Source of the DNA: Pedobacter roseus
GTDB taxonomy: Bacteria; Bacteroidota; Bacteroidia; Sphingobacteriales; Sphingobacteriaceae
Assembly: GCF_014395225.1 (NCBI RefSeq)
Contig: NZ_CP060723.1
Location: 1 to 64,000 of the forward strand
Reading direction: 5' to 3'
DNA: 64,000 bases
The notes beneath the pieces are model-generated. The model worked only from the letters and a program-made list of their open reading frames with translations. It had not been told where the DNA came from and made no database searches. The position numbers were made by a program, and so were the translations under genes. Shown here one piece after another: positions 12,673 to 51,218 of the stretch (its first letter is position 1; each line of letters begins with the position of its first letter).

Positions 12673-12675
12673 CGC

Positions 12676-13119
12676 TTATTTATTTTCTAGGTTATCCATA
12701 AAAACAATATCATTTGGCAGCTCATTAATGTCGCCTTTTTGTGTCGGGAAAAATAAAGCCAGTTTTTCTCCTGCCAATGCAACACCTGCAATTATACCAT
12801 CGGCTAAATTTCCTTTGGCAAAATGTGCGGTCATGGCAATTTTAGTCGTTTCCCAGAAATTTTCTGGTACCCGCTGATTAATACCTACATCGCCGATAAT
12901 GGCAAATTTATGGTCTGCATGCGCAATGTAAATCAATACACCATTTCTTCTGGCGGTTTTATCCATGTCAAGCTTATTGAAATATTCGATGGCCTTTTCG
13001 TATGGATCGCCTTCGCAAAGTTTATCAATTGCAATTCTGATTTCTCCCGAAGTAGCTTTCTCCGCATCAGCTATCGCGTTTGCTATTTTTTCTTGTTCTA
13101 TATCTGAAAATAACGGCAT
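12676..13119 (-). CDS. TPM-domain protein, short form
   Basis: A 147-residue protein with a TPM domain and no signal peptide or obvious membrane helix. Features are SDIEQEKIANAIADAEKATSG, a TARRNGVLIYIAHADHKFAI strand-helix segment and GDVGINQRVPENFWE. It sits between LemA and the exported TPM gene. Lack of a signal peptide suggests action in the cytoplasm or at the inner face of the membrane. Function is unknown. Confidence 0.85.
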   Translation of the reverse strand: MPLFSDIEQEKIANAIADAEKATSGEIRIAIDKLCEGDPYEKAIEYFNKLDMDKTARRNGVLIYIAHADHKFAIIGDVGINQRVPENFWETTKIAMTAHFAKGNLADGIIAGVALAGEKLALFFPTQKGDINELPNDIVFMDNLENK

Positions 13120-21665: not shown

Positions 21666-21740
21666 AGTCCCGTAGCTCAGCCTGGTTAGAGCACTACACT
21701 GATAATGTAGGGGTCTCCAGTTCAAATCTGGACGGGACTA
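21666..21740 (+). tRNA. tRNA-Ile(GAT), copy 1
   Basis: Acceptor AGTCCCG/CGGGACT, anticodon stem CTACA-TGTAG with GAT anticodon, T-loop TTCAAAT. CCA is not encoded. It lies in the 16S-23S spacer. Confidence 0.96.
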
Positions 21741-21752
21741 CATTTAAATCCT

Positions 21753-21829
<77 letters not shown>

Positions 21830-22193
21830 CAGAATACATACCTTATTATCGGGATAGATAATATACATTGACATAAAGATTAAGAAAGAAGAAAACGCCA
21901 CGGGGCACATACAAATAAAAGTATGAAACGGTTCGAGACCGCAGTTTTTTACTAACGAAGCTGGAACGAAGCTTAGGTTGGGGACAATGAAACCCTCCGC
22001 CTTTATACCTTCGGCCTTCAGGTTCAGTAAAGTTCTTTGACATATTGGAAGAAGTTAAAAAAGAAGAGCAAACAACAATAGGCGACTGTTGTGTTTGTGC
22101 TCACTTAAAGGGATCGCAAGAGACCAATAAGTATGAGACATCATAACAAGAGCAAAAAAAGCATACCATACGGCGCAAAAGGCGTATGAGTAG

Positions 22194-31096: not shown

Positions 31097-31171
31097 AGTC
31101 CCGTAGCTCAGCCTGGTTAGAGCACTACACTGATAATGTAGGGGTCTCCAGTTCAAATCTGGACGGGACTA
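31097..31171 (+). tRNA. tRNA-Ile(GAT), copy 2
   Basis: Same sequence as copy 1; offset 9,431 because of spacer length changes. Confidence 0.96.
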
Positions 31172-31183
31172 CATTTAAATCCT

Positions 31184-31260
<77 letters not shown>

Positions 31261-31624
31261 CAGAATACATACCTTATTATCGGGATAGATAATATACATT
31301 GACATAAAGATTAAGAAAGAAGAAAACGCCACGGGGCACATACAAATAAAAGTATGAAACGGTTCGAGACCGCAGTTTTTTACTAACGAAGCTGGAACGA
31401 AGCTTAGGTTGGGGACAATGAAACCCTCCGCCTTTATACCTTCGGCCTTCAGGTTCAGTAAAGTTCTTTGACATATTGGAAGAAGTTAAAAAAGAAGAGC
31501 AAACAACAATAGGCGACTGTTGTGTTTGTGCTCACTTAAAGGGATCGCAAGAGACCAATAAGTATGAGACATCATAACAAGAGCAAAAAAAGCATACCAT
31601 ACGGCGCAAAAGGCGTATGAGTAG

Positions 31625-35200: not shown

Positions 35201-36970
35201 ATGATGAACGCTAACCTTAAGAAATTAACTTTTCTTGTTTTTATTTTCTGCATAAACCTTAGTGCTTTTGCTCAGAATAAAAATGTACAGCTCCCTGCCA
35301 ATTGGTTTAATTTAGATTTACTGGAGAATGGCTATTTTGGTATCAGTACCGAAAAGGCTTATCGTGAGCTGTTAAAAGATAAAAAGCCCAAACAGAATAT
35401 CATTGTAGCCGTAATTGATGGTGGAGTAGATACCAATCACCCGGATCTGCAGCAGGTTTTATGGACAAATAAAAAGGAAATCCCCGGAAATGGAAAAGAT
35501 GATGATGGCAATGGCTACATCGATGATATACATGGCTGGAATTTTATCGGCTCTAAAAAGGGAAACCTCGAGTTTGATAACCTGGAACTGGTTAGGCTGT
35601 TAAGGATTTACAGGCCAAAATATCAATCAACAACCAATTTAACACCTTTAGATAGTACGCAGAAGGAAGAATATAAGTTATATAAGAAAATGGTTGGCGA
35701 TTTCGGTAAAAAATACGAGGATGCCAGCAATACTTTTTCTGTGCTCATTGCCATTAACAAAGTTTTAGATTCTGTAGCCAAAATCAATAGGAAGGAGATG
35801 CCAACCCTTGAGGATATCGACCGATACAAAGCTGATGATGAAACTGAGGAACAAGTAAAAACCATTATCAGAAAAGGTTCTAAAGAAGATGGCGGTTTTG
35901 ATAAGTTTTACAAAAATATAAAGGAAGGGTATAAGCAATATGATGCCATGCTAAAATATAACCTGAATCCTAAATATGATATGCGTGCCGAGTTAGTAGG
36001 TGATGATTATAGCAATTCTTACCAGAAAGTTTATGGAAACAACGATGTAAAAGGACCTGATGCTTTCCACGGTACACATGTATCTGGCATTATTGGTGCC
36101 GACCGTACAAATAATGTTGGCATATTAGGGGTAGCCAATAATGTAAGTATTATGGCCATTCGTGTTGTACCCACTGGTGATGAGCGTGACAAAGATGTAG
36201 CCAACGGTATCCGTTACGCGGTTGATAATGGTGCGAAAGTTATCAATATGAGTTTCGGTAAGAGCTATAAATGGGATAAAAAGGCTGTAGATTCTGCAGT
36301 TAAATATGCTGAAAGCAAAGGTGTTTTACTGGTTCATGCCGCAGGGAACGATAACCAGAACAATGATATAGAAGAAAATTTTCCCAATAAGTTTTTCGAT
36401 AGCAAAGAAGCTGAAGCTTATAAGGAAGCCAACAAAAAGCCTGCTAAGCCCGATTTTACCCCACCCCGCCCAATGGGCCAGAATAATGGAATGGGTATGC
36501 GGCCTCCTTTTGAACGATCAGCGCTGGTTAAACCGATCGTTATAGATTCTGCTAAGTTCAATCTTCCACACGCCAGTAATTGGATCGAAGTGGGCGCTAG
36601 TGCCTATAAAGACGATGATAACCTGAAAGCAGATTTCTCTAATTATGGCAAATATAGTGTTGATGTTTTTGCGCCTGGGTTTTTGATCAAATCTACAGTG
36701 CCAGATATTAAGTATGAAGAAGCTGATGGAACAAGCATGGCTTCGCCGGTTGTTGCTGGTTTAGCCGGACTGATTTTAAGCTATTATCCGGAATTAAAAC
36801 CTGCTCAGGTGAGGGAAATTATTATGAAGTCGGTTTCGAAAGTAGCACACAAAATAAAATACAAAAACGAAAAAGGTGAAAATGTTAGGGTACTTTTTAG
36901 CGAAATATGTGTGAGTGGCGGGATTGTAAACACCTATAATGCACTTAAATTAGCAGAGACGTATAAATAA
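35201..36970 (+). CDS. Exported subtilisin-like serine protease (S8 family)
   Basis: Predicted secreted or periplasmic protease. The 589-residue protein has a signal peptide (about 1-25, ending SAFAQ) and a complete catalytic triad: Asp73 in AVIDGGVDTNHP, His290 in FHGTHVSG, Ser512 in DGTSMASPVVAG, with oxyanion Asn383 in AAGND. About 217 residues separate Asp and His, far more than the roughly 30 in subtilisin; the insertion is charged and helical (about 125-285). A Pro/Met-rich stretch (412-436) forms a second insertion. No type IX or SprB-like sorting domain is seen at the C-terminus. Met2 is a possible alternative start. Confidence 0.92.
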   Translation: MMNANLKKLTFLVFIFCINLSAFAQNKNVQLPANWFNLDLLENGYFGISTEKAYRELLKDKKPKQNIIVAVIDGGVDTNHPDLQQVLWTNKKEIPGNGKDDDGNGYIDDIHGWNFIGSKKGNLEFDNLELVRLLRIYRPKYQSTTNLTPLDSTQKEEYKLYKKMVGDFGKKYEDASNTFSVLIAINKVLDSVAKINRKEMPTLEDIDRYKADDETEEQVKTIIRKGSKEDGGFDKFYKNIKEGYKQYDAMLKYNLNPKYDMRAELVGDDYSNSYQKVYGNNDVKGPDAFHGTHVSGIIGADRTNNVGILGVANNVSIMAIRVVPTGDERDKDVANGIRYAVDNGAKVINMSFGKSYKWDKKAVDSAVKYAESKGVLLVHAAGNDNQNNDIEENFPNKFFDSKEAEAYKEANKKPAKPDFTPPRPMGQNNGMGMRPPFERSALVKPIVIDSAKFNLPHASNWIEVGASAYKDDDNLKADFSNYGKYSVDVFAPGFLIKSTVPDIKYEEADGTSMASPVVAGLAGLILSYYPELKPAQVREIIMKSVSKVAHKIKYKNEKGENVRVLFSEICVSGGIVNTYNALKLAETYK

Positions 36971-37058
36971 AGGAGATTTTTAGTTTTTTGGAAGCCCGGA
37001 GCTAAAAAGTTCCGTAAATGTCCTGAATGTCAAACGAAAAAATAGGTAAATTGAAAAT

Positions 37059-37838
37059 TTACGCGCTTAGGGTTTTAATAAACTCCTGAAAGGTCCCAAA
37101 CGGATAGTTTTTCTCCTTCATCCACGAAATAAGTGCTTCCATGCGTTCGACCATTTTTTTGCCCGTATTTTTCCTCACGTAACCAGGGAAACCAAAGCGC
37201 TCAAAATCGTTCAGATCGGTAAACTCCCAGGGGTGGAAATAAATATTCAGGTATTTATCCTTTTTATAAGTCCAGCTGGCCAGTGTTTTGTAAATGCTGA
37301 GTGGTAAGTTATGAAATGACAACCAAAATAAAGGGAAACGTATTAACGGACTTACTGATGCCGGAATCTGCAATACATTATCTTTAACAAAATGTGTTCT
37401 CGAGATGTTAAAATTATTGTAACGACCTGGTAAATAGGTTGGGTTTATAGAGGTATTATAAGTATATCCTGCCTTTTCTATTTCTTTTTCATCAACAGGC
37501 ATCATCCTCGCCATACGGTAACCTGTAATTTCTTTACCAGAAAGTTCTTCGAGTTTGAGTTTTGATTGAAGTAAATGTTCGGGTTTAAAATCTGAATGAT
37601 AATACCCGTGCGAAGCCAGTTCATGCCCTGTTTCAGTAATCCGCTTAATGAGATCGGGAATGTTTTCGGCAAAAGTTACCGTACAAAAAAACGTTGCTTT
37701 TACGTTGTATTTATCTAAAATATCCAAAATGGCAATGGTACCTGCTCTGGAAATGGAAATCTGATCTTCAAAAGAAATATCTTTTCCATACTCAAATGGC
37801 ATATCAAATTCTTCAATATCAAAACTTAACAACACCAT
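37059..37838 (-). CDS. Polysaccharide deacetylase (NodB/CE4 type)
   Basis: Predicted metal-dependent carbohydrate N- or O-deacetylase. The 259-residue protein has the NodB start LSFDIEEFD with Asp7, the histidine metal pair His77/His81 in ELASHGYYH, and a C-terminal part with NIYFHPWEF (about 205-213) as in polysaccharide deacetylases carrying a DUF3473-like tail. No signal peptide, so action on a lipid-linked sugar at the cytoplasmic face is likely. Its ATG follows directly on the glycosyltransferase stop (TAAATG). Confidence 0.88.
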   Translation of the reverse strand: MVLLSFDIEEFDMPFEYGKDISFEDQISISRAGTIAILDILDKYNVKATFFCTVTFAENIPDLIKRITETGHELASHGYYHSDFKPEHLLQSKLKLEELSGKEITGYRMARMMPVDEKEIEKAGYTYNTSINPTYLPGRYNNFNISRTHFVKDNVLQIPASVSPLIRFPLFWLSFHNLPLSIYKTLASWTYKKDKYLNIYFHPWEFTDLNDFERFGFPGYVRKNTGKKMVERMEALISWMKEKNYPFGTFQEFIKTLSA

Positions 37839-38771
37839 TTATTTTTGCTGAATATTAGTTGAACGGATAATGTAATTAGGGCGGTTTTTAGACTGCATGA
37901 ACATTTTGCCTACATAAATGCCTATAATGCCCAAAATAATAAGCTGTAGCCCTCCAAAAAAGACAATGGTCATAATTACCGATGCCCAGCCAGAAACCTC
38001 TACATGATTTACAAAAGCATAAATAATGTAGGGTATGTAAAGTACAGAGGCAAAAGAAAGAATGAAACCCAGGTATACCGCAGTATATAGTGGTTTAATA
38101 CTAAAAGAGGTAACACCGTGTAAGGCTAACCTGAACATTTTTTTAAGGGTGTATTTACTTTGTCCCGAAAAACGTGCAGCCGGATTGTACCTGATGGCGA
38201 ACTGTTTAAACCCGAGCCATTTTACCAAACCGCGTAGAAAAGGTTCGTTTTCGTGGAAATTCCTGAAAACACTTACCACTTTTTGATCTAATAACCTGAA
38301 ATCGGCTGCTCCCGGCTCTAAATCGATATCAGATAACCAGTTTAAGGTTTTGTAAAACAGGTTTGATGAGCTTCTTTTGCCTTTTGACAGATTTTTATCT
38401 TCTTCCCTTATGGTATAAACCACTTCAAATCCATCCTGCCATTTCTGCAGCATTTCAGGGATCAGCTCAGGCGGATGCTGCATATCACAGTCCATAGAAA
38501 TTACACAATCGCCAAAAGCATGATCCATACCAGCTTTTACCGCCAGTTGATGCCCGAAATTTTTAGAAAATTCGAGAAAGAAGATATTATCAGCCGTTGC
38601 TGCATAATCCTTTATTTTTTCGAGGGTGTGATCAGCACTGCCATCATCAACCAGGATAATTTCATAACGGTAATCAATCACCGAAAAAACATTTTTAATA
38701 CTTTCGGCAATTACGAAAATATTATCGGCTTCATTGTAGGCAGGGATTACTATAGAAACTAACTTATTCAT
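37839..38771 (-). CDS. Family 2 glycosyltransferase, GtrB/polyprenyl-phosphate type
   Basis: Membrane-bound GT2 that probably moves a sugar from a nucleotide donor to a lipid carrier. The 310-residue protein starts VSIVIPAYNEADNI, has the donor motifs DDGSADHT and MDCDMQHPPELIP (about 115-127), and ends with two membrane helices (about 228-250, 264-288). It overlaps the upstream GT87-like gene by one base (TAATG) and directly abuts the deacetylase, so the three are one operon. The lipid is likely undecaprenyl phosphate. Confidence 0.9.
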   Translation of the reverse strand: MNKLVSIVIPAYNEADNIFVIAESIKNVFSVIDYRYEIILVDDGSADHTLEKIKDYAATADNIFFLEFSKNFGHQLAVKAGMDHAFGDCVISMDCDMQHPPELIPEMLQKWQDGFEVVYTIREEDKNLSKGKRSSSNLFYKTLNWLSDIDLEPGAADFRLLDQKVVSVFRNFHENEPFLRGLVKWLGFKQFAIRYNPAARFSGQSKYTLKKMFRLALHGVTSFSIKPLYTAVYLGFILSFASVLYIPYIIYAFVNHVEVSGWASVIMTIVFFGGLQLIILGIIGIYVGKMFMQSKNRPNYIIRSTNIQQK

Positions 38772-39952
38772 TAATCGGCAATCAGATAAGACTTAAAATC
38801 TTCTTTCATCATTTGATATATTATGGTAAGCCAAATGATTACGCAAGGTAGGGCTTTAAACGAATATAGACGAATAAATTCTTTAACAGCCTTGGGGAAA
38901 ATATCGGTTGGCGATAGGCTGGTGAGTATAAATGCAAAGATAAACAATGCGATTATCCAACCGTTCTTGGGGTTTTGTTGTACCATAAACCAGATGGCCA
39001 CACCTGCAAATGCAATAATATAAGTTGGCGATTCTGATCCACTGCTGAAAATTACCGTAAAAATCAATGTTGATGCCAGTAACATTAACCTAAAACCTAA
39101 ATGTTTGTATTGGTTAATGCGGGTATAAGGCAATCCGAATAAGATTAATCCACCCAGCAAAAACGGCATATTCGGAATATTGATATTTCCTGTTGCCCTT
39201 CTAACCATTCCCATTAAAGAAATATCCTGAAAAGAAGTTAATGAGGCATTCAGGTCATTTTTATGTGCCAAAGAGTGGTACCAATCGCTGTAAGACTGAA
39301 TTACAAATGCTGGCGACGAAATCGCCATAGGCAAGGCAAATAACAAAGCAAAGGCAATAAAACAGCCTAAAATAAATTTAAGTTTATTTTTTGTAAAGAA
39401 GAAAAAAGCAAGTCCTACTATGCCATAAAGTTTTACCAAGGTACCAAATGCAATAAAAAATGCCGATTGCACCTCCTTTTTTTTGACCAGGTAAGAGAAA
39501 CTGAGCAAAATAATACCGGTTAAGGCAATATTGAACTGGAAACTAAATAAAGCGGTTAACGCTTCGTGTGCGCAGATCCAGGCAATAATAGTACGTTTTT
39601 TAAGCGATATAGGTAAACTATAAATACCCCAGAGCAGTATGCATACATTTGCAATATTCCATAAAATACAGCCTAAACCATCGGGTAAAAGGGCAAAAGG
39701 TGCAATAAAAACCGAAAATACCGGTCCGTAATGGTTGCTATCCCGATATTCAGCATAATTATTATATAAATTTTGCAGATCTGTAGTATGCCAGTATACA
39801 TATTTAAAGATCAGGTAATTGTTGTACGAATGATGGTGATATTGTTTGAAACCGGCAATAATAGCCAATAGGAGATAAATGACGATAACACATTGCTTTT
39901 TTAAAAGAAATGAGAATACTTTGTTCAAACCAGCGTTCTTAGAATTGTTCAT
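38771..39952 (-). CDS. GT87/DUF2029-type integral membrane glycosyltransferase
   Basis: Predicted polyprenyl-phosphate-sugar-using glycosyltransferase with about ten membrane helices over 393 residues. Features consistent with the GT-C/GT87 fold are the periplasmic loop after the first helix (YRDSNHYGPVFSVFIAPFAL, about 68-87), the segment GTLVKLYGIVGLAF near 172-185, and C-terminal GSESPTYIIAFAG. It is first in the operon with GT2 and the deacetylase. Together these suggest making and transferring a lipid-linked sugar that is then deacetylated. The acceptor is unknown. Confidence 0.78.
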   Translation of the reverse strand: MNNSKNAGLNKVFSFLLKKQCVIVIYLLLAIIAGFKQYHHHSYNNYLIFKYVYWHTTDLQNLYNNYAEYRDSNHYGPVFSVFIAPFALLPDGLGCILWNIANVCILLWGIYSLPISLKKRTIIAWICAHEALTALFSFQFNIALTGIILLSFSYLVKKKEVQSAFFIAFGTLVKLYGIVGLAFFFFTKNKLKFILGCFIAFALLFALPMAISSPAFVIQSYSDWYHSLAHKNDLNASLTSFQDISLMGMVRRATGNINIPNMPFLLGGLILFGLPYTRINQYKHLGFRLMLLASTLIFTVIFSSGSESPTYIIAFAGVAIWFMVQQNPKNGWIIALFIFAFILTSLSPTDIFPKAVKEFIRLYSFKALPCVIIWLTIIYQMMKEDFKSYLIAD

Positions 39953-40058
39953 TATGATTAGTGCCGCTAATATAACTATTTTAACAGCTTGCTTAATGAT
40001 CTATTCTTTTTGGACCTTGTTTTTTTGAAGTGGTGAGAGAAGTTTTAGCAAGGTACGC

Positions 40059-41345
40059 TTAAAATTTTTCGCCGGTTTTTAGATCAGAAAGGCTGAAATT
40101 TTTGAAAGAGCCTATCCCTGCAAAAACAATCTTAAAGCCCATTAGCTTTCCAATAGGTTTATGGTATTTGGTTTTAAAGATTTCCCTGCCATCTATAAAC
40201 AGGATTACCTGTTGGTTTTCTATTTTTAATTTAATCCGGCCGCCATTGGTGAGGTCATGTCCAAACTCTCTTAAATCATCCTTTTCACCTTTTTTGTTGA
40301 CTTCCGAAAATTTGTATGAACCCCAAACCGTACACTCAGGCTTAATGATGCTGAGGAAATGTTTATCGTTTTCTCCATAAAAAACCAGATCTACCTGAGA
40401 GCAACGTACACCGGGTCTTTCAGCAGAAGTAGTAATATCCGCATCGAACTCAAAATTATCAGCGCTGATCTGTGTTGGCCGTACATTGGCAAACGACACA
40501 AAAAATGTTTTACTGGTATCAACGCCGGCATCCAGCACATCTCTGCTGGTTACATGATAATCATGCGCTGTAGAAATCTTTTTTAATATTGGATATACCC
40601 TCGTCGAATCATTTTGCATGGTTGCAATGATATCCCAGCCTTTGCTCTGCAGGTACACATAAGCCGTATCTATGATGGTATTTTTATGGTACAATATCGG
40701 GAAATACCTTCCCGGCGTTTCGTAATAATGATTCGCCGTACTGTCGCTAAAATTCGATTGCTTTAACCTGCTATCTGCAAAATCTATCGTAAAATTGCTC
40801 AGTTCATCAGACAGTTTTCCATTAATATCCAGCTTAAAAATAGCGGAATGTGGACTCTTTCCCTCGGGATTTAAACAGCGGAGTTGCACGTTGCGAACTT
40901 CATTATTTCCAAAAAAGTAGTAAATACTGGCAGGTACAGCTACAATAAAAAAAGCAAGCATGAAGTATAAGGCATAATTACGCCTGGGTTTTGCAGGTAT
41001 TGGCGGAGGAGCCTGGCTTATATCGCTCTCCTTTTCGGTTACCGCATGCAAGAGTTCAAATTCATACCAATCCCTAAAACCTATAAATTGAGCAAGGGCA
41101 TCTCTCGTTGCTTTTTGGGGGTAATAACGTGTAGGTTTTTTAAGCTTTCCGAAAATGCGCTTTAGTGTATTTTCGCTTAAATGAACCTTTGTTTTACGGT
41201 GCAGTAAACCGCTGAGTTTGATGTAATCGCTATTCTTCCATTCCGAAATGCTTTTTTCGCCGACCTGGTGTGCTACTTTTTTACAACAAATATCCAGCTG
41301 TTTAAAAAAAACAGAATTTTCGGGCTGTACAAACTCATTATTCAT
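40059..41345 (-). CDS. One-span membrane protein with DNA-binding-like N-terminus and glycan-sensor-like exterior
   Basis: I do not recognise the full protein. Of 428 residues, 1-100 look cytoplasmic and helical, with LSENTLKRIFGKLKKPTRYYP (56-76) resembling a helix-turn-helix recognition helix and a basic tail. A Pro-rich linker (112-120) with Arg121/Arg122 leads to one membrane helix (about 124-145), so the C-terminal part should lie outside the cytoplasm. That part (150-428) is strand-rich and ends with a lectin- or laminin-G-like region (NGGRIKLKIENQQVILFIDG, 376-395). It is divergent from susC. A membrane-anchored transcription regulator responding to a glycan is a reasonable guess, not proven. 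Confidence 0.72.
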   Translation of the reverse strand: MNNEFVQPENSVFFKQLDICCKKVAHQVGEKSISEWKNSDYIKLSGLLHRKTKVHLSENTLKRIFGKLKKPTRYYPQKATRDALAQFIGFRDWYEFELLHAVTEKESDISQAPPPIPAKPRRNYALYFMLAFFIVAVPASIYYFFGNNEVRNVQLRCLNPEGKSPHSAIFKLDINGKLSDELSNFTIDFADSRLKQSNFSDSTANHYYETPGRYFPILYHKNTIIDTAYVYLQSKGWDIIATMQNDSTRVYPILKKISTAHDYHVTSRDVLDAGVDTSKTFFVSFANVRPTQISADNFEFDADITTSAERPGVRCSQVDLVFYGENDKHFLSIIKPECTVWGSYKFSEVNKKGEKDDLREFGHDLTNGGRIKLKIENQQVILFIDGREIFKTKYHKPIGKLMGFKIVFAGIGSFKNFSLSDLKTGEKF

Positions 41346-41521
41346 TTAGTTTAAGTGGTTGATTATTAGTTTGTTGGCTTGTCAATAATATTGGTAAACA
41401 TTTGTATAAATGGTTATCGTTTTGGGACGTGGATCATTGCCTAAGTTTATCATAGCAAATGAAAAAAAAAAGTTCTTTCGCTGCAAAACAAACTATTTTT
41501 TATAAAACTAACCAAATTTTA

Positions 41522-44500
41522 ATGAAAAAAAAACTACTCTTAATGGTGTTCTTTTTGTGCAGTTGTTATGCACTAAAAGCACAAACCAAATCGGTTACCG
41601 GGAAGGTGATTGACGCAGGTACCAAAGAAAGTCTTATCGGTGTTACCATTACTATTCCCGGCACTAAAATAGGTACCACAACAGATGTAAATGGACTATT
41701 CAATTTAAATGTTCCAACTGGTTCTGACAAACTTTTGGTTACCTATATCGGCTATCAGGAACAAATGGTTTCGATAACCGGAACAAGCCTGACCATCAGT
41801 CTGGCTGCCAATACAAAAAACCTTAACGATGTGGTGGTGGTTGGGTATGGAACCCAGAAAAAGAAAGATTTAACGGGGGCAATTTCTACGATCAGTGCCG
41901 AAGACATTACCGGGAGGCAGACTGCTCAGATTTCGGAGTCGTTACAGGGCGCCATTCCGGGAGTGTCGGTTACGCGGAGTAGTGCGGCACCGGGTGCCGG
42001 GGCAACAGTACAGATCAGGGGCGTAACCACCTTAAACTCGAATGCACCTTTGGTAGTGGTTGATGGAATACCCGTAAGTAGTATGGATCTGGTGAACCCT
42101 AATGATGTAGAATCGTTTAGTGTGTTAAAAGATGCTTCTTCTGCGTCCATTTACGGATCAAGAGGTGCAGCAGGTGTAATTTTGATTACCACCAAGCGTG
42201 GCAAGAATGGAGCTTCAAACCTCGATTACAATTTTGAGTACGCCCTGCAAAAACCTACAGCCTTACCAACTTATGTAAACTCGCCTACCTACATGCGGTA
42301 TTTTAATGAGCAGGCCACTAATGACGGTGCAGCAACCGGACCTTATGCGAATGATTACATTGTAAACTTTGATGCACGCAGGGCCGCAACGCCAGATCTG
42401 TTCCCTTTTGGAAATACCGATTGGCAAAGCCTTATTTTAACCAGAGATTATGCCCCAAGGCAGGAGCATAACCTGAGTTTTACGTCCGGTACCGAAAAGT
42501 TAAAAACCAAAGCTTCTTTTGGCTACCAGGATATTGGCGCTTTTTACAATAACTACAATTACGAACGTTACCAGTTTAGGGTAAACAACGATATTAAGCT
42601 AAGTGATAAATTCAATGCTAATGTCGATTTATCATTCAGGCGTTTAAATAATCTTTCGCCGGTAAACAATCCATTTAGTGGACAGAGCCCGATTTACGAA
42701 GCCAGGGTAATGCCGCCCATTTATGCTGCTACTTATACCAATGGGGCCTATGCTATTGCAAAGGACGGACGAAACCCATTGGCGCAGTTAAACGAAGGTG
42801 GAACCACAACAGGGGCTTCAAATCAGTTACAAGGCCGGTTGGCTTTAAATTTTAAACCCATTAGGGATTTAACCTTAACAGCCCAGGTGGCACCTACATT
42901 CGATTTTGACAAGAGTAAGGCCTTTTCGAAAAAAATTGCATACACCAATGCTGATGGTACACCAAGCGCTGCTACCAATACTGCGTTAACCACTTTAAGG
43001 GAATCACGGAACGAAACTTACCAGTTAAACAGTCAGTTTTTAGCCAATTATACTAAAAGCTTTAACAATAAGCACAATTTTAGTGCTTTGGCAGGTTTTG
43101 AGAGCATTTACTTTAACTATGAAACATTGGGTGCGGGTAGGGATGGCTTTGCATTAACCGATTATCCTTATTTAAGTGTGGGCTCGCAGCTTTTGAGAGA
43201 TAATTCAAGTGATGCGGGGCAGGAGAGCCTTCAATCGTTTTTCGGCAGGTTAACCTACGATTTTATGGGTAAATATTATATTCAGGCCAATTTAAGGTAT
43301 GATCAATCCTCACGTTTTGCTCCTGGATTCCGTGGCGCGTCTTATCCTTCTTTTTCGGCCGGATGGAGCATTTCGGAAGAAAACTTTATGAAAAATGTAA
43401 AGTGGGTAAGCTTTCTAAAATTAAGGGCTTCGTATGGCGGTGTGGGTAATCAGCGCATTACTAACCCGTATCAAAATAATGCGCAAAATTATTATCCTTC
43501 TCAGGCATCGATCGATCTTTCCAATACCGCACTGTTTTATCAGAACGGCGTATTGGTACCCTTAACAACTGCTGCCCAAACCATTTATGCCATCAGGGAT
43601 ATCAGATGGGAAACCACCAAATCATCTGATATCGGTATCGATGCTGCTTTTTTAAACAACCGTTTAAGTGTTACTGCCGATTATTATAAAAAGAGCACCA
43701 AAGATATATTGCTTTCTTTGGATATCCCCTATAACCTAGGTTACGACAGGCCGACTCAAAATGCCGGAATTTTAGATGTATATGGATGGGAACTTGGTTT
43801 AAACTGGAAAGATAAGATTGGCGATTTTACTTATAGCGCAGGCTTTAACATTGCCGATGCCAAAAGCAAGATCAAAAATATGAACGGTACCCGCCAGGAA
43901 ATTAACAGTCAGCAGGTAAATATGGAAGGCAGCCAGTTTAACGAATGGTATGGTTATTTATCAACGGGGATTTACCAAAATGTAGCTACTGCAAACGGGG
44001 CTGCAAGAACCAGTTCTGCCATTACCGTTGGCGATATCGGCTATGTTGACCTTGATAATAATGGGATCATAAATGCCAATGACCGTGTTTTGCTTGGTGG
44101 CTCTTTGCCACGGTACCAATATGGTGGTAATATTAATGTAGGTTATAAAGGATTCGATTTTAGTATGGCTTTTCAAGGTGTAGGTAAAAGATTAAGCAGG
44201 TTGAATAATGATGTAGTAAGGCCTTTTCAGGAGCAGTTCGGTAATTTTCCAACCCTGCTTGATGGCAATTTCTGGAGTAAAAGCAATAGTGCAGAACAAA
44301 ATCTTGCAGCACAGTATCCAAGGTTATCCAACACGAGCAGTACAAACAATTATGCCAGTTCCGATTTCTGGCTGATAGATGGATCATATTTCAGGTTAAA
44401 GAATGCCACGCTGGGTTATACTTTTAATAAACAGGCATTATTAAAAAAAATCGGCCTGCAGTCTATCAGGATTTATGTTGCCGCAAATGATTTCCTCACC

Positions 44501-44596
44501 AGCAGTAAATTCCCAAAATATGCCGATCCCGAATCTGGAAATGCCAGTTATCCGATTGTTACCACCTTCTTGGGCGGAGTTGCAGTTAAATTTTAA
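41522..44596 (+). CDS. SusC/RagA-type TonB-linked outer-membrane transporter
   Basis: TonB-dependent outer-membrane channel for oligosaccharide or other large nutrients. The ATG at 41522 (1,024 residues) is preferred over 41459 because it directly precedes the signal peptide MKKKLLLMVFFLCSCYALKA. A CarboxypepD_reg-like domain follows (about 24-100, VTGKVIDAGTKESLIG), then a TonB-box-like VVVVGYGTQ and the plug domain with VQIRG and GSRGAAGVILITTKRG. The C-terminus has barrel strands ending in VAVKF. A SusD partner starts 19 bases downstream. Confidence 0.95.
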   Translation: MKKKLLLMVFFLCSCYALKAQTKSVTGKVIDAGTKESLIGVTITIPGTKIGTTTDVNGLFNLNVPTGSDKLLVTYIGYQEQMVSITGTSLTISLAANTKNLNDVVVVGYGTQKKKDLTGAISTISAEDITGRQTAQISESLQGAIPGVSVTRSSAAPGAGATVQIRGVTTLNSNAPLVVVDGIPVSSMDLVNPNDVESFSVLKDASSASIYGSRGAAGVILITTKRGKNGASNLDYNFEYALQKPTALPTYVNSPTYMRYFNEQATNDGAATGPYANDYIVNFDARRAATPDLFPFGNTDWQSLILTRDYAPRQEHNLSFTSGTEKLKTKASFGYQDIGAFYNNYNYERYQFRVNNDIKLSDKFNANVDLSFRRLNNLSPVNNPFSGQSPIYEARVMPPIYAATYTNGAYAIAKDGRNPLAQLNEGGTTTGASNQLQGRLALNFKPIRDLTLTAQVAPTFDFDKSKAFSKKIAYTNADGTPSAATNTALTTLRESRNETYQLNSQFLANYTKSFNNKHNFSALAGFESIYFNYETLGAGRDGFALTDYPYLSVGSQLLRDNSSDAGQESLQSFFGRLTYDFMGKYYIQANLRYDQSSRFAPGFRGASYPSFSAGWSISEENFMKNVKWVSFLKLRASYGGVGNQRITNPYQNNAQNYYPSQASIDLSNTALFYQNGVLVPLTTAAQTIYAIRDIRWETTKSSDIGIDAAFLNNRLSVTADYYKKSTKDILLSLDIPYNLGYDRPTQNAGILDVYGWELGLNWKDKIGDFTYSAGFNIADAKSKIKNMNGTRQEINSQQVNMEGSQFNEWYGYLSTGIYQNVATANGAARTSSAITVGDIGYVDLDNNGIINANDRVLLGGSLPRYQYGGNINVGYKGFDFSMAFQGVGKRLSRLNNDVVRPFQEQFGNFPTLLDGNFWSKSNSAEQNLAAQYPRLSNTSSTNNYASSDFWLIDGSYFRLKNATLGYTFNKQALLKKIGLQSIRIYVAANDFLTSSKFPKYADPESGNASYPIVTTFLGGVAVKF

Positions 44597-44615
44597 CGGT
44601 TCAAAATATTATAAA

Positions 44616-46313
44616 ATGAAAAAGTTATTCATCATCATATCTATCATGGCTTTCTGCGGATTTTCTTGTAAAAAGCTCGATTTAAACCCATTATCAAGTC
44701 CAGGTTCTGATAGTTTTTATTCAAACCAGAACGAACTGGAGCTCGCTGTAAACGATTTATACCGTTTGGATTTTTGGACGCCGGTAAAGGAAAGTACAGG
44801 TGCCTGGGAGGAATTCTTTTCGGACAATTGTTTTTACCGTGGGGGCTCCGGCGGTAATCCGGTAATTGCCGGAAGTTTATCCTCAACAGATGGTAATGTG
44901 CAAACCTTTTATCAAAACTGTTATAAGGCAATTGCCCGCGCCAATACCTTTTTAGAAAGTAAAGACCGGGCCGCTTCCAATACACCGATAGCCGTTCTGA
45001 TGAGGCTTGAAGCGGAAATGCGTTTAATCAGGGCTTATCAATATACCAAATTGATTACCCATTTTGGAGATGTGCCGCTGATTTTAAAAACGCAGACCAT
45101 CGAAGAGGCAAGCAATGTTAGCAAAACTACCAAGGCTGATATTTATAGTTTTTTAAAAACTGAATATGATTTCGCCGCTCAAAATCTGCCACAAAGTTAT
45201 GGCGCAGCAGTAAAAAGGTTAAGCAAAGGTGCTGCCCTGGCTTTAAAAGCGAGAACAGCCTTGTACATGGGCGATTGGGAAACGGCAAGAGCAGCTTCCT
45301 TAGCGGTAATGGAATTAACCGGCGCCGGGGCTTATAGTTTAAATAATTCATATTCCGCATTGTTCCAGCGCGCCGGGGAGCAGAGTGCCGAAATTATTTT
45401 AAGCATTCCGCGCGATCAGACCCAAAAAGTATCGAGTGTACCTGACGATATTTTAACCCGTAATGCAGGTGGCTTTGCGGCTACCATGCCAACCCGTGAG
45501 CTGGTTGATGCTTACGAATGTACTGATGGTAAACCCATCGACGAATCTCCCTTGTACAATCCATTAAAACCATTTGATAACCGCGATCCACGTTTGGCTG
45601 CCACAGTGGTACCTTTTAATACTTACTGGCTGGGGTATAATTTTAATCCACATCCAGATTCAACACAGGTTTGGAGCAATAAGTTGGGGCGGAAAGTAAC
45701 CAATAATGATACCCGCGCAGTTGCACCTTTTGCCACATTTACGGGTTTTATTTGGCGCAAAGGCGTAGAGCAGAGCTGGTCGGATACCCACAATGAGGAT
45801 AATGATGCCATTATTATCCGTTTTGCAGAAGTTTTGATCACCTATGCCGAAGCTAAAGTAGAATTAGGACAGGCAGACGCAACTGTTTTAGATGCCCTAA
45901 ACAAGGTAAGGGCAAGGGCTTATGGTGTTCCGGTAACCCAAACGGGATCCTATCCCGCAGTTACCACGTTTGATTTAACCGAACTTAAAAAAATAGTAAG
46001 GAGGGAAAGAAGAATAGAATTCACATTTGAAGGCTTACGTTATATGGACCTCATCAGGTGGAAGCTTGCCGAAAAAGCGCTTACTAAGCCCGTAATAGGC
46101 TTACCAGATCCTGCTAATCAGAACAGGGCCAAATGGCCTTTCCCTGGAGTAACACCAATTGATGATGATGGGATTGCCGATTATTCAGGCTTTGGAGGTG
46201 ATGTAAAAATTTTATTTACCCGAAGTTTTGATAAAAACAAACAGTATTTGTGGCCAATACCTGCCGTCGAAGTAAGATTAAATCCAAAATTGACACAAAA
46301 CCCGAATTATTAG
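44616..46313 (+). CDS. SusD/RagB-type surface glycan-binding lipoprotein
   Basis: Surface lipoprotein that covers the SusC channel and captures the ligand. The ATG at 44616 (565 residues) gives a lipoprotein signal peptide with CGFSC (Cys18). The earlier frame from 44475 runs inside susC and lacks one. The family C-terminal motif RREDRIEF-like RRERRIEFTFEGLRYMDLIRW is near 463-483, and PIPAVEVRLNPKLTQNPNY ends the protein. It is cotranscribed with susC. Confidence 0.94.
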   Translation: MKKLFIIISIMAFCGFSCKKLDLNPLSSPGSDSFYSNQNELELAVNDLYRLDFWTPVKESTGAWEEFFSDNCFYRGGSGGNPVIAGSLSSTDGNVQTFYQNCYKAIARANTFLESKDRAASNTPIAVLMRLEAEMRLIRAYQYTKLITHFGDVPLILKTQTIEEASNVSKTTKADIYSFLKTEYDFAAQNLPQSYGAAVKRLSKGAALALKARTALYMGDWETARAASLAVMELTGAGAYSLNNSYSALFQRAGEQSAEIILSIPRDQTQKVSSVPDDILTRNAGGFAATMPTRELVDAYECTDGKPIDESPLYNPLKPFDNRDPRLAATVVPFNTYWLGYNFNPHPDSTQVWSNKLGRKVTNNDTRAVAPFATFTGFIWRKGVEQSWSDTHNEDNDAIIIRFAEVLITYAEAKVELGQADATVLDALNKVRARAYGVPVTQTGSYPAVTTFDLTELKKIVRRERRIEFTFEGLRYMDLIRWKLAEKALTKPVIGLPDPANQNRAKWPFPGVTPIDDDGIADYSGFGGDVKILFTRSFDKNKQYLWPIPAVEVRLNPKLTQNPNY

Positions 46314-46357
46314 ATGCAGCAGTTGGAAGAATACTTCCGGCTGTTTAAAATATACAC

Positions 46358-48760
46358 ATGAAAACAAACCTTATATTAAAATTTGGTGCCTTAATGAGCG
46401 CTGCCATTTTTACCGCTCAATTAACCTTTGCCCAAACAAAACCCCTGCAGGTAAGCGGTGTTTATCCGCATTTAGCCACATTTAACGAAAGCTGGGACAA
46501 ACAAAACTGGTTAAAACAAGGTGTTGCAAAAAGTTATGGTGATGGTGGCGAAAACGGTATTGGTGCCATTACACCCTGGGCAGGCAAGCTTTGGATGGTT
46601 ACTTATTCGCCGCACATGCCTAAAGGGAGCTCTGATAAGTTATATAGTATTGATAACAACCTTAATGTTACCATACATCCTGAAAGCATTGGGGGCACAC
46701 CTGCAAACCGGATGATCCATAAAGAATCCAATCAGTTAATTACCAGCAACTATTTTATAGATAATAAAGCTAATATCAGGGTGATCCCCTTTTCGGTAAT
46801 GCCTGGTAGGATGACCTCAACTACGCGCCACCTTACCGATCCGGCAAACATGGTCTATTTTTACGACATGGAGGGGATGCTTTACGAAGTTAATGTGCAC
46901 ACGCTTGCCGTAAAAAAACTATTTAATAAACCTGTGCCTGGTTGGCATGGTAAAGGTGCTTATACTGCACAAAAACAGCTGGTAGTAGCTAATAATGGAG
47001 AAGAAGCTGTTTTTAAACTTACAAAAGACATGCTCGAAGCAGGTGATTTACCCAAAAATGAAGAAGAAAAGGGTGTTTTGGCCAGCTGGGATGGGAAAAC
47101 CTGGAAAATTATTGAACGCCGCCAGTTTACCGATGTAACCGGACCAGGTGGTATTTATGGTTCGCCAAATGATAAAAGCCCGCTTTGGAGTATCGGCTGG
47201 GATAAACGTTCGGTGATATTGAAACTGTTGGATGGTGGCAAATGGTATACCTACCGTTTACCCAAAGCGGCCCATACTTATGATCATCGTGGGGGTTGGT
47301 ATACCGAATGGCCACGTATCCGTGAGGTTGGCAACGGTAAAATGTTAATGGATATGCATGGAATGATGTACGATTTTCCAAAAACTTTTTCAAGGAATAA
47401 TAGCAGTGGTATTACTCCGGTAAATAGCCATTTACGCTATATCCCCGATTTTTGCAGCTGGAATAACCAGATTGTAATCTCAACCGATGAAACCACCGTT
47501 TTAGAAAATCCTATGGCCGGTAGGGCACAATCAAACCTATGGTTCGGGCAATGGAACGATTTAAAGACCTGGGGCGGTGCGACAGGGTGGGGTGGTGTTT
47601 GGGATAACGATGAAGTCAAAGCCAATGTCCCTTCTGATGCATTTTTAGTCAATGGTTTTGAAAAAAAGGTTTTGCATTTTGATCAGAAATCGGCAGAGCC
47701 GGTTCGGTTTACCATTCAGATAGATAAAACCGGGAATAATAAATGGGAAAATTATAAAACAATAACTGTTGCGGCCAATACTTATCAGTATTTTGTGTTT
47801 CCGGCTGATTTTAAGGGAACCTGGGTAAGGATCACAACAGATAAGAACTGTACAGCTTCCGCATTTTTTCATTTTACCGGAAAAATGCATGACAGTCAGG
47901 ATTCAATGTTTAATACACTGGCCGGGATTGATGAGAAAATGAAAGTGAACGACAACTTGATCCGTCCTTCCGGATACAATAAAAATCTTCAGGTATTAAA
48001 TATTTCCAGCGGTAAAAAACAATACCAGGAAGTTGATGAAAAACTATCCTTTTTAAGTAATACGCCTGATAGCACAGCACAAATGGAAAAACTTTTAACA
48101 TTAACTAAAAACTATACCGTTGATGATGCTTCTGTTATTATAAAAGATAAAACCGGTACTTTCCGTTTACCAAAAGGATCATCCCAATACGAACTTTTTC
48201 CATACCGCGATAAAAGAGAGGTAGAATCGGAACGTTTTATGATGAACATTAAGGGTACTTTTTACGAAGTTGGCCGCGAATCTGGATTTAGTGCGATCCG
48301 TCCTGTTACCACCCACAATAAAAAAATAGTGGATTTTTGTACCTGGCGTGGATTATTGGTGATGAGCGGTACTAAACAGGATGCAAAACCAGATGGACAT
48401 TATTTCGGTAACCAGACCAATGGGTTGTGGTATGGCGGTATTGATGACCTGTGGAAAATGGGTAAACCTGTTGGCGAAGGTGCTGTATGGAAAAATACAG
48501 CAGTAAAGTCGAATAATCCTTCCTTACCTTACTTAATGACGGGTTACGATCAGAAAAAGGTGAGCCTAATGGCTGATAAAGATGTAGATATCACCCTGGA
48601 GGTTGACTTTGATCTGTGTGGTTTTCATCCCTACAAAACATTTTCTATCAAAGCAGGAGAAACTATAAATTATACATTCCCCGATGGTTTTAGTGCCCAC
48701 TGGGTGAGGGCTATTGCAAATAAAGATTGCCAGTCAACAGTAACCTTTACCTATTACTAA
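46358..48760 (+). CDS. Large exported protein of unknown function with duplicated module
   Basis: I do not recognise a family. The 800 residues begin with a signal peptide (1-26, ending LTFAQ). The middle (40-320) is strand-rich, with Trp/Gly-rich repeats that suggest a beta-propeller. Residues 328-506 and 626-800 are clearly related: both have a MHG/IKG-xx-Y start, DFCSW/DFCTW (364-368, 659-663), SNLWFG/NGLWYG, GVW/AVW, VNGFEKK/MTGYDQK, TITVAANTYQYFVFP/TFSIKAGETINYTFP and WVRITTDKNC/WVRAIANKDC. It starts 44 bases after susD and is probably in the same operon, so a role in glycan binding or breakdown is likely. No catalytic motif was recognised. Confidence 0.82.
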   Translation: MKTNLILKFGALMSAAIFTAQLTFAQTKPLQVSGVYPHLATFNESWDKQNWLKQGVAKSYGDGGENGIGAITPWAGKLWMVTYSPHMPKGSSDKLYSIDNNLNVTIHPESIGGTPANRMIHKESNQLITSNYFIDNKANIRVIPFSVMPGRMTSTTRHLTDPANMVYFYDMEGMLYEVNVHTLAVKKLFNKPVPGWHGKGAYTAQKQLVVANNGEEAVFKLTKDMLEAGDLPKNEEEKGVLASWDGKTWKIIERRQFTDVTGPGGIYGSPNDKSPLWSIGWDKRSVILKLLDGGKWYTYRLPKAAHTYDHRGGWYTEWPRIREVGNGKMLMDMHGMMYDFPKTFSRNNSSGITPVNSHLRYIPDFCSWNNQIVISTDETTVLENPMAGRAQSNLWFGQWNDLKTWGGATGWGGVWDNDEVKANVPSDAFLVNGFEKKVLHFDQKSAEPVRFTIQIDKTGNNKWENYKTITVAANTYQYFVFPADFKGTWVRITTDKNCTASAFFHFTGKMHDSQDSMFNTLAGIDEKMKVNDNLIRPSGYNKNLQVLNISSGKKQYQEVDEKLSFLSNTPDSTAQMEKLLTLTKNYTVDDASVIIKDKTGTFRLPKGSSQYELFPYRDKREVESERFMMNIKGTFYEVGRESGFSAIRPVTTHNKKIVDFCTWRGLLVMSGTKQDAKPDGHYFGNQTNGLWYGGIDDLWKMGKPVGEGAVWKNTAVKSNNPSLPYLMTGYDQKKVSLMADKDVDITLEVDFDLCGFHPYKTFSIKAGETINYTFPDGFSAHWVRAIANKDCQSTVTFTYY

Positions 48761-48935
48761 AAAGGGCATAAAGCTTAATGGTTTATAATCTTGATTATGA
48801 GTTTTTTACCCGTTCAAAGTTTTGGATAGGCTTTGGATAAGTGGTAATGATTATTTTTCTGCGTTATCAACTATTATTGTAGTGCAATAAGGTATTAGGG
48901 ATATCTGATAGCGAAGTCTAGGGACAACAAACGCG

Positions 48936-48970
48936 ATCAATGCAGGGGCTTTATGCCCTTGCATTTGATT
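48936..48970 (+). terminator. Hairpin downstream of the glycan locus
   Basis: ATGCAGGGGC and GCCCTTGCAT pair with one G-U across a 5-base loop, flanked by ATCAA/TTTGAT words. It is 180 bases after the last gene of the glycan locus. It could be a terminator or a repeat. Confidence 0.55.
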
Positions 48971-49519
48971 TTAACTTTTTTCCATTTAGCCTCGATTTAA
49001 TCGGAAATTAATAAGGTTGCCCATATTATGAATCGTAAATATTTGGTTAGTATTTATAATGTTAGTTGATTAATATCAAGCCATGGTGTATCACACTGTG
49101 GCTTTTTTTGTTCATTCTGACCATATAAGGCATTGAAGAAACATATAAGTTTAAGGTGTATATAAATGCACTATTAAATTACTATAAGTTATTCGGGTTG
49201 TTCCAAACTACCAATATTTTCTTAAATGTACTCAGGTGTCTTAGGTATTGAAAATGGTTTGTTCGTCGATTCTTATTAATTTTCATTAACCACCTTAGAC
49301 GCCTGAATTTTCCAAATCATAACAAAAAGTCCTTAGCTGTTCAGGTGGCTAGCCATAAGAAAGAGTTGGTTTCAATGTTAATACACTCACTCTGCTGCTT
49401 AATTTACCTATCAAATTAAACAATCATTATAAAATTGTTAAGTATATCGATTTAGTAAAACCTTTTACTAACTTTAAGACACTGAACCAAATAAATCATC
49501 AATCTTCCTTAAAAAAACT
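48971..49519. other. Intergenic region between glycan locus and PI-PLC gene
   Basis: About 550 bases with one further hairpin (see 49078-49107). The rest is AT-rich without ORF or recognised repeat. Confidence 0.6.
49078..49107 (+). terminator. Probable rho-independent terminator
   Basis: AAGCCATGGTG and CACTGTGGCTT form a stem with G-U pairs, followed by seven T residues. No gene ends directly upstream. Confidence 0.65.
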
Positions 49520-50488
49520 ATGAAGAAACTACAACTGCCACTTTTCGTGGCCCTGGTGCTTACCTTTAGCGCCTGTAAAAAAGAACAACAAGAGACTGAA
49601 AAATTTTCCGGACCAAAACTTAAAGAAAATGTAAATCCAAATGCGGCTTTATCAAGTTTTTCGCTTAATAACTGGATGAGCGTACTTGCCGATCAAAACA
49701 GCATTGCTACAATTTCTATCCCGGGTACTCACGATTCAGGCGCTACAATCGAACCTGTTTCAGGTACGGCTAAATGTCAGAACCTGAGTATCGCCGATCA
49801 GTTAAATGCAGGTGTACGTTACCTGGATATCCGCTGCAGGCACATAGACAATGCTTTTGCCATCCATCATGGAGCTATTTATCAAAACCTTAATTTTAAT
49901 GACGTACTGAATGCCTGTATCAATTTTTTGAACAGTCACCCATCTGAAGCTATTATTATGAGCGTTAAAGAAGAACATACACCATCAAACAATACCCGTT
50001 CGTTTGAGCAAACATTCGACTCTTATGTACAGCAAAATCCAGGTAAATGGGATTTGGGAAATAACGTTCCAACCCTGGGTAGTATCCGCGGAAAAATAAG
50101 ACTGTTGAGAAGGTTCGGAGCATCTTCGCCAAAAGGGATTGATGCGACTGCATGGGCTGATAATACCACCTTCGATATCAATAATGCTGCTGCCAATTTA
50201 AGGGTTCAGGATTTTTACAACGTTAATGATGTAAATACAAAATGGACAAGAATAGAAACCTTATTAAACGAAGCAAAAAATGATACTTCGAATAAACTTT
50301 ACCTTAATTACGCAAGCGGATATAAAGCAGGTATATTCAGTATTCCGAGCATCACTACGGTTTCAAATTCTGTCAATCCAAAAATCACTACTTTTTTTAC
50401 CAATAACACACATGGTAAATTCGGTATTATCCCGTTGGATTTTGTTGATTCAGGCCGGAGCCAATTAATTGTAAATACAAATTTCTAA
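49520..50488 (+). CDS. Phosphatidylinositol-specific phospholipase C-like lipoprotein
   Basis: Predicted metal-independent PI-PLC on the cell surface or in the periplasm, cleaving phosphatidylinositol or a related head group. The 322-residue protein has a lipobox LTFSACKK (Cys19). The X-domain carries catalytic His71 in SIPGTHDSG and His116/117 in AIHHGAIYQ, with Arg and Asp in YLDIRCR (101-107) matching inositol-binding residues. The C-terminal half has the barrel strands expected. It is monocistronic with a terminator. Confidence 0.88.
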   Translation: MKKLQLPLFVALVLTFSACKKEQQETEKFSGPKLKENVNPNAALSSFSLNNWMSVLADQNSIATISIPGTHDSGATIEPVSGTAKCQNLSIADQLNAGVRYLDIRCRHIDNAFAIHHGAIYQNLNFNDVLNACINFLNSHPSEAIIMSVKEEHTPSNNTRSFEQTFDSYVQQNPGKWDLGNNVPTLGSIRGKIRLLRRFGASSPKGIDATAWADNTTFDINNAAANLRVQDFYNVNDVNTKWTRIETLLNEAKNDTSNKLYLNYASGYKAGIFSIPSITTVSNSVNPKITTFFTNNTHGKFGIIPLDFVDSGRSQLIVNTNF

Positions 50489-50523
50489 ACCTAAACCACT
50501 TGGTTTATTGGTTCAGGTAATGG

Positions 50524-50553
50524 CGGTACATCCAAAAGGATGTGCCGTTTTTT
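50524..50553 (+). terminator. Terminator of the PI-PLC gene
   Basis: CGGTACATCC and GGATGTGCCG pair across AAAA, followed by TTTTTT. Confidence 0.88.
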
Positions 50554-50588
50554 AGGCAAATTAGGGTTTGTTAATTGGTTTAAGTTAT

Positions 50589-51218
50589 CTACGCCCCAAC
50601 TGGCTCCTGGGCAGCTTTATTCAGTTCTTTACTTCTGATCCTGCTTAAAGTTTCAAACCTCATCCCCAAATAGCTGGCCAGATAACGTAATGGTATCCTG
50701 TTCATATCAATTTTTTTGCTTTCTTCCAGTTTCCGGTACCTGCGCAGGGCATTGGGTATCCGGGCCAGGATCGATCTTTCAGATGCAGCGTAATAGTGCA
50801 GGGCTAAAAGTTTTCGGCCAACAACATTGGCTTCTTCAAAATTAGAATAAGCGTACTCAATCATCGTGTAGGGGATGCGGATGAGTTCGCAATCTTCGAG
50901 TGCCTGCAAATATTCTACAGAATGGTAGGGTTGGAGGTCGGGATGACGGATAGCGCCAACGATATTGTTTCCAAAGCAGAACCAGGTGGTGATATCTTTA
51001 TTACTATCTTTTATAAAACCCCGAACAATACCGCTAACTACGAAATATAAGGCGGCATTACTATCAACCGGGGAAACAATGTGTTTATTTTTTTTGACGG
51101 TTAACCGTGTACACTGCGTAGCATAATGTGTAGCAAGAAGCGGCGAAATGGGGTGATATTGCTCCATATATTCGATAAGTGGCTTAACAAAGGAGCTGCT
51201 GTTGATATTTGGCATCAT
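50589..51218 (-). CDS. Crp/Fnr-family transcription regulator
   Basis: Cyclic-nucleotide-binding-fold regulator of 209 residues. The N-terminal sensor domain (about 20-130) carries NAALYFVVSGIVRGFI and a C-terminal helix leads to a DNA-binding region with IPLRYLASYLGMRFETLSRIR (about 176-196). No cysteine cluster for an Fnr-type Fe-S sensor is visible. The binding pocket lacks an obvious cAMP signature, so the signal is unknown, as in many Bacteroidetes members of this family. Confidence 0.9.
   Translation of the reverse strand: MMPNINSSSFVKPLIEYMEQYHPISPLLATHYATQCTRLTVKKNKHIVSPVDSNAALYFVVSGIVRGFIKDSNKDITTWFCFGNNIVGAIRHPDLQPYHSVEYLQALEDCELIRIPYTMIEYAYSNFEEANVVGRKLLALHYYAASERSILARIPNALRRYRKLEESKKIDMNRIPLRYLASYLGMRFETLSRIRSKELNKAAQEPVGA

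Follow-up and report, generated by a model that had tools for sequence, protein, structure and literature searches.

How is a SusC-SusD locus controlled when the gene facing it encodes no regulator of a described type, and what does the third gene of such a unit do? The question is raised by a locus of Pedobacter roseus contained in the 64,000-nt stretch of DNA analysed here (contig NZ_CP060723.1, positions 1 to 64,000), which we call the window and to whose positions all coordinates refer. A first-pass annotation proposed a new type of transport locus, made of a SusC/SusD pair, a divergent one-span protein and an 800-residue protein of no known family. The one-span protein (the regulator, 428 aa) is encoded on the minus strand at 40059-41345; susC (41459-44596), susD (44607-46313) and the gene of the 800-aa protein, termed P800 (46358-48760), follow on the plus strand. 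Our analysis makes it probable that the membrane-spanning regulator directly activates the adjoining susC-susD-P800 genes from a conserved site located 62-64 bp upstream of a -7 promoter box.

The regulator and susC-susD-P800 make up a single conserved cassette, transcribed divergently. Among 151 genomes of the order, drawn evenly, P800 is found in 13 and a regulator match at 1e-20 in 22; because so few genomes carry either gene, the locus is accessory. Within the genus, all ten P800 loci (in nine genomes; one, that of G103, broken) adjoin the regulator on the opposite strand and, reciprocally, all ten regulator matches above 600 bits adjoin P800 on the opposite strand, with gaps of up to ~5.3 kb. 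Other genera in the sample contributed four P800 genes, and no regulator match was detected in those genomes. A set of 21 close loci with at least 59% identity (L005-L023, L033 and L070) was also compared: the regulator lies beside the unit in 17, SusC-SusD precedes P800 in 15, and a major facilitator superfamily (MFS) transporter gene follows P800 in 14. Two of the four close loci that lack an adjoining regulator begin at or near a contig end, L018 at P800 and L020 at SusC. The regulator faces P800 directly, with no SusC-SusD pair between them, in L010, L011, L015 and L092 (the second locus of G110). Distant P800 genes (38-39% identity) are also found near a regulator, directly in L052 and with one intervening gene in L050. 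On a tree of 71 P800 open reading frames (ORFs) longer than 600 aa, the regulator label needs 6 changes, compared with 16.2 in shuffles. Both Sphingobacteriaceae and Chitinophagaceae contain further instances of the unit, and relatives of P800 number in the thousands across several phyla; hence, the idea of a locus peculiar to this genome is not supported. A broken P800 gene occurs in L070, besides that of G103.

The divergent promoter harbors a conserved site, new here, with the pattern TGT-N8-TTG-N7/8-TTTG, which precedes a Bacteroidota -7 box by 62-64 bp. In the window, the predicted operator (TTGT...TTG...TTTG) occupies 41379-41404 of the plus strand, and the predicted -7 box, TAAGTTTA, lies at 41442-41449 of the same strand, 63 bp past the first base of the TTGT. 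The box matches TAnnTTTG, the consensus reported for the -7 element of promoters read by the housekeeping sigma factor of Bacteroidota (PMC7366714). Motif search by expectation-maximization was performed on 17 divergent intergenic regions; those of L015, L016, L050 and L070 were shortened, and the near-copies L005, L006 and L023 were dropped. The resulting 26-nt motif, which spans 41374-41399 in the window, scored 342, versus 236-246 in eight dinucleotide-shuffled sets. When the next TAnnTTT[AG] box was sought, it was found 62-64 bp from the TTGT of the motif in 14 of the 15 loci having one; the site of L033 was placed 11 bp off in this initial count. Leave-group-out models found the box at 62-64 bp in all 15 loci with at least 100 nt, each with a chance of ~0.013 for the 3-nt window, and site scores reached p ≤ 0.05 in 13 of them, the weak ones being L022 and L033. 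Six further loci were examined: an exact box lies at 62-64 bp in L015, L091, L092 and L113, and a box with one mismatch lies at 64 bp in L115 and at 62 bp in L050. L015 and L050, both in the first motif run and neither in the matrix used, were retested at fuller length, while L091 is close to the window's locus and L113 to that of L022.

Close relatives share long stretches of the intergenic region, and one may ask if the site reflects mere shared ancestry of intergenic DNA, or if it is bound by another factor. We consider either explanation quite improbable. The same site and spacing are found with either susC or P800 as the following gene, and also in the distant Bacteroidales locus L052; in both arrangements, the constant neighbor of the site is the regulator gene. 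Furthermore, when sequences were aligned on the box, conserved columns were detected at about -64 to -60, -51 to -48 and -40 to -38, and also at -79/-78, -68, -35 to -33 and -7, whereas conservation falls between about -32 and -8, where most other columns are poorly conserved. A like site also adjoins the genome's only regulator paralogue. When the 6.3-Mb genome was searched for the pattern, allowing up to one mismatch, three matches were obtained, versus none with a reversed control. One is the promoter described here, matched perfectly; another separates the paralogous regulator from its own susC; and the third, inside a SusD-like gene (identified by eye), is likely a chance match. The pattern had been fixed from the training loci, and the paralogue's site had already been noticed by eye.

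Because the site lies upstream of the -7 box at a fixed distance, we read the regulator as an activator. The opposite possibility is that it represses its own gene, susC or both, and that the glycan releases repression. In eight examined loci the site is 28-29 bp from the start codon of the regulator and may therefore cover the regulator's own promoter, as a repressor might. Relative to susC or P800, however, the site is found upstream of the would-be -33 element and at a constant distance, the usual place for an activator, and we regard repression as unlikely.

The gene calls around the promoter agree with the first-pass annotation. SusC, a SusC/RagA TonB-dependent transporter by Pfam and NCBIfam, matches TIGR04056 with 902.8 bits (cut-off, 368.25), and Pfam lists no STN domain in it; judging from the start of its relatives, its true start is probably 41522 rather than 41459. 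The SusD/RagB lipoprotein, also identified with both databases, matches SusD_RagB at 4.2e-49 and has a lipoprotein-like start at 44607, while the first ATG of the ORF is at 44475. Adjacent susC and susD genes are those of a polysaccharide utilization locus; a recognizable carbohydrate-active enzyme, the other hallmark, was not found in the window's locus by Pfam and NCBIfam. A Pfam scan of 10 proteins (35201-51218), out of 12 listed ORFs, detected none with a sigma, FecR, histidine-kinase or AraC domain; this search did not extend to sigma genes in the rest of the genome.

A contig scan for P800 detected 83 relatives, and the best 80 were taken as loci. In eight of these 80 (L031, L032, L038, L041, L042, L046, L066 and L082) a member of a FecR cluster stands directly before SusC-SusD-P800, and in L083 it stands before SusC-SusD-x-P800. 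The cluster was named by Pfam from its L042 member and its L010 member, the latter belonging to another SusCD pair. All nine FecR-preceded loci lie outside the close clade, and none of the close loci has FecR before its own SusC-SusD-P800. In genome G039, sigma, FecR, SusC, SusD and P800 are consecutive in locus L093, with FecR confirmed by Pfam. Since FecR precedes susC-susD-P800 in a sister subfamily, one module appears to be placed behind two kinds of one-span regulator, which provides a natural comparison. It follows that the transport part is ordinary, and that it is the regulator that sets the locus apart.

The replacement by FecR has another side, as the layout of the regulator (a cytoplasmic domain, one span and a periplasmic domain) recalls the FecR type. 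The regulator might thus be anti-sigma-like and act on a sigma factor encoded elsewhere. This alternative seems to us very improbable: no FecR or sigma match is found nearby, no STN domain is listed in SusC, and the predicted promoter box is of the TAnnTTTG housekeeping-sigma type with a conserved site upstream. A one-component, membrane-tethered activator with its N-terminus inside, in place of an anti-sigma factor, is therefore our prediction.

The protein itself is made of a helical, DNA-binding-like N-terminal domain (residues ~1-100), a transmembrane helix (124-145), a PKD-like domain (~150-250) and a galectin/CBM66-like domain (~260-424). Hydropathy peaks at residue 126, as expected of a single span. 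The AlphaFold model contains helices between residues 12 and 99, the transmembrane helix and then beta domains (mean predicted local distance difference test score 87, with residues 105-121 under 50; predicted TM-score 0.65). Structure comparison found similarity between the exterior and galectins, ERGIC-53 and CBM66. Hence, the single span and the lectin-like exterior noted earlier are upheld, while the helix-turn-helix (HTH)-like end is upheld in part: the model contains a helical N-terminal domain, but no HTH family was matched. From the helix pattern and the context, we infer that this domain is HTH-like and may bind DNA; the predicted topology is N-terminus inside, lectin-like domain outside. 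Searches of Pfam, NCBIfam and PDB, either with the single protein or with a profile, gave no family for the regulator, and hemagglutinin rows in the N-terminal searches were attributed to chance.

A homologue search with the regulator retrieved 343 of the 4408 proteins scored. Some paralogues of the regulator lie near susC (as in L089, L097, L101 and L106), and one, in L099 (6699-10510), lies near a GH36 gene and a sulfatase gene, both checked with Pfam. Given these neighbors, the paralogues may have a function in glycan use in common. By look alone, regulator paralogues in L096, L101 and L102 are also found beside genes resembling GH36 or sulfatase. In addition, this genome encodes a fusion of the N-terminal domain to a following P-loop ATPase-like protein (L003, 1408-3150; the P-loop was read by eye).

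P800 is an unnamed family. Neither Pfam nor NCBIfam gave a match at E ≤ 1, and no PDB sequence was matched at E ≤ 5, in agreement with the first-pass annotation; a carbohydrate-active enzyme family for P800 or an anti-sigma family for the regulator would have changed the picture, and neither was found with these three databases. P800 relatives number at least 7694 proteins at E ≤ 0.001, of 7999 scored, and the best 80 loci belong to Bacteroidota, Verrucomicrobiota, Kiritimatiellota, Planctomycetota and Acidobacteriota. A precomputed Pfam domain was found in none of the 240 relatives listed in two homologue searches; the query with a short relative retrieved 3719 proteins, and the 120 listed had neither a Pfam domain nor an informative name. 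A signal peptide was recognized by eye, and the structure model has a propeller at ~27-407 followed by further beta domains; residues ~331-507 resemble 629-799 with 29% identity, an internal duplication. The Foldseek matches are propellers of different kinds, namely WD40 and phage proteins, a number of GH43 enzymes and a sialidase, and VIA-align likewise detected a generic propeller at ~27-407. As the match is generic, no function can be read from the fold. Foldseek TM-scores to the GH43 and sialidase rows were under 0.3; two PDB rows at E 1.1 and 1.3 from a 53-row profile look like chance; and, in the family searches with P800 or the regulator, MATalpha_HMGbox and OAT transporter matches scored under their cut-offs and are implausible in this setting.

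A rival reading is that P800 captures glycan without catalysis, degradation being carried out by enzymes encoded elsewhere. We regard this as a possible, though not the favored, explanation. The propeller match is at fold level only; when 53 relatives were searched singly, a few weakly matched CBM_35_2 (3/53) or PLipase_C_C (6/53); and some distant relatives, lipoprotein-like by eye, lie between SusD and enzymes. Against mere capture, the invariant charged residues are many across the 53 sequences, down to ~39% identity, and more numerous than we would expect of a binder, and P800 occurs without SusCD in other phyla. Neighbors within six ORFs include FAD_oxidored (19/77), sulfatases (9/77) and GH29 (6/77), counted in the 77 of 80 loci where P800 was called, using single-linkage clusters whose names derive from a Pfam search of one or two members each. 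In L074 and L075, from Acidobacteriota metagenome-assembled genomes, the P800 relatives are shorter (473-499 aa) and stand beside FAD_oxidored-type genes. The neighbors of the short relative in L075 resemble galactonate transporter, sugar-acid dehydratase and DapA genes, each scoring below its NCBIfam cut-off.

The first-pass annotation saw no enzyme and no further gene in the locus. This is accurate for the window, yet besides the MFS gene that follows P800 in most close relatives, a few relatives carry glycosidase-type neighbors: GH88 in L011, and GH29 in L015, L016 and L092. A stable hairpin followed by T-rich sequence, possibly a terminator, is found at 48935-48983 (plus strand), in the gap that the MFS gene occupies in the close relatives L005 and L006, and tblastn found no remnant of that gene in the window. 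The only relative of the MFS transporter in the genome at 1e-10 is a 48% paralogue without SusCD beside it, which might be the missing partner of the window's locus. In L033 (~12330-12840), the MFS gene downstream of P800 is decaying, its coding sequence being distributed among different frames. The NCBIfam models nearest to the transporter are aromatic-acid and sialate symporters, all under cut-offs. Taken with the GH88 neighbor in L011 and the neighbors in L075, the class of the transporter suggests a sugar-acid substrate; a glycan containing a sugar acid is a weak guess.

The following sequence of events can be tentatively drawn. The galectin-like domain likely senses a glycan in the periplasm; the N-terminal domain is predicted to bind the conserved site and to switch on susC-susD-P800; SusCD would import an oligosaccharide; P800 would process the imported sugar before it reaches the cytoplasm; and the MFS transporter present in most close relatives would take the product inside. 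The genome studied here, which lacks that gene at this place, would need another transporter. The substrate is the weakest step of this explanation.

Several observations weigh against the explanation. Close P800 genes in L012 and L021 lack the regulator. The N-terminal domain matches neither an HTH family nor a solved DNA-binding structure in Pfam, NCBIfam and PDB, and lysine plus arginine residues around the transmembrane helix number 4 versus 3, which hardly favors the N-in orientation. With the 8-nt spacer, the operator pattern gives background only (6 genome matches versus 4 in the control); hence, a one-mismatch match by chance is not rare. The site of the genome's paralogue has p 0.037 with the matrix. 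Among 17 paralogous regulators, a site at p ≤ 0.010 was detected for three (L098, L102 and L103), in one direction or both, and for the other 14 in neither direction. In the leave-out models, site positions were carried over from a run in which the left-out locus took part, and some of the loci are closely related. No intact MFS gene follows P800 in 7 of the 21 close loci, among them L007, L015 (on a short contig) and L033 (decayed), nor in the window. Lastly, the sugar-acid hint derives from below-cut-off matches, partly in other phyla.

A broader proposition, on which we are somewhat short of evenly divided, is that one-component, membrane-spanning N-in activators make up a further class of SusCD regulators that serves several loci across Bacteroidota, some near GH36 and sulfatase genes. 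They would read a periplasmic glycan through a galectin-like lectin domain and turn on the adjoining uptake operon from a site at a constant 62-64 bp before the -7 box, and P800 would be the founding member of a new family of carbohydrate-active proteins found in several phyla. If true, a further type of SusCD regulator would be recognizable by sequence and would have a candidate site, making such loci callable. A function for P800 would in turn annotate a large family, with thousands of relatives in Bacteroidota, Verrucomicrobiota, Planctomycetota and Acidobacteriota.

Other features of the window deserve mention. Consecutive GT87, GT2 and polysaccharide-deacetylase genes lie at 37059-39952, and a PI-PLC-X-domain protein is encoded at 49520-50488; the former keep their position, and the latter remains 3' of the unit, in L005-L007. 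The same tRNA-Ile(gat)/tRNA-Ala(tgc) pair is present at 21666-21830 and 31097-31261, two copies ~9.4 kb apart. Read from the tRNAs alone, the duplication likely indicates two rRNA operons close together.

How does the locus compare with known systems? Our literature search, which was limited and is no proof of absence, recognized neither a like regulator nor a P800-like protein. Beta-propellers are found in carbohydrate-active enzymes within glycan loci, as P800 is; families PL22, PL24/25 and GH145 are further examples. P800 differs from them in having no sequence family match (Pfam, NCBIfam, PDB).

As to regulation, one study distinguishes three types for such loci in Bacteroides: SusR-like, hybrid two-component systems, and extracytoplasmic function (ECF) sigma factors with anti-sigma factors (PMC3878776). 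SusR is described there as an activator of sus operons that resides in the membrane, its sensor in the periplasm and its C-terminal DNA-binding domain in the cytoplasm; MalR is named as a second sus regulator in another report (PMC12632263). For our regulator, likewise a membrane protein, a periplasmic sensor and a cytoplasmic DNA-binding domain are predicted. The layout sets them apart, however, as the DNA-binding end, C-terminal in the SusR described, is predicted to be N-terminal here, with the galectin-like sensor at the C-terminus. Their sites also differ: SusR motifs consist of two sites 67 or 77 bp apart, according to the same text (PMC3878776), while three short elements within 26 bp are found here. 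Unlike hybrid two-component regulators, the 428-aa protein has no histidine kinase, receiver or AraC match at E ≤ 1 in Pfam. ECF sigma/FecR loci resemble ours in having a one-span protein beside susC, and sister P800 loci are of this very type; the window's locus falls outside it, with no nearby sigma gene, no FecR match and no STN domain listed in SusC. The earlier placement of the regulator outside the three layouts is thus borne out. ToxR/CadC-type regulators have an N-terminal DNA-binding domain, one span and a C-terminal periplasmic sensor, a layout that the regulator may share, as it fits the structure model and hydropathy. The differences are that the regulator has no match to the winged-HTH family Trans_reg_C (PF00486) and has another N-terminal domain and a lectin-like sensor, and that it adjoins SusCD. 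Judging from family matches and predicted layout, it appears to fit none of the SusR, hybrid two-component or ECF/anti-sigma types, and may be best viewed as a variant of the membrane-tethered one-component kind.

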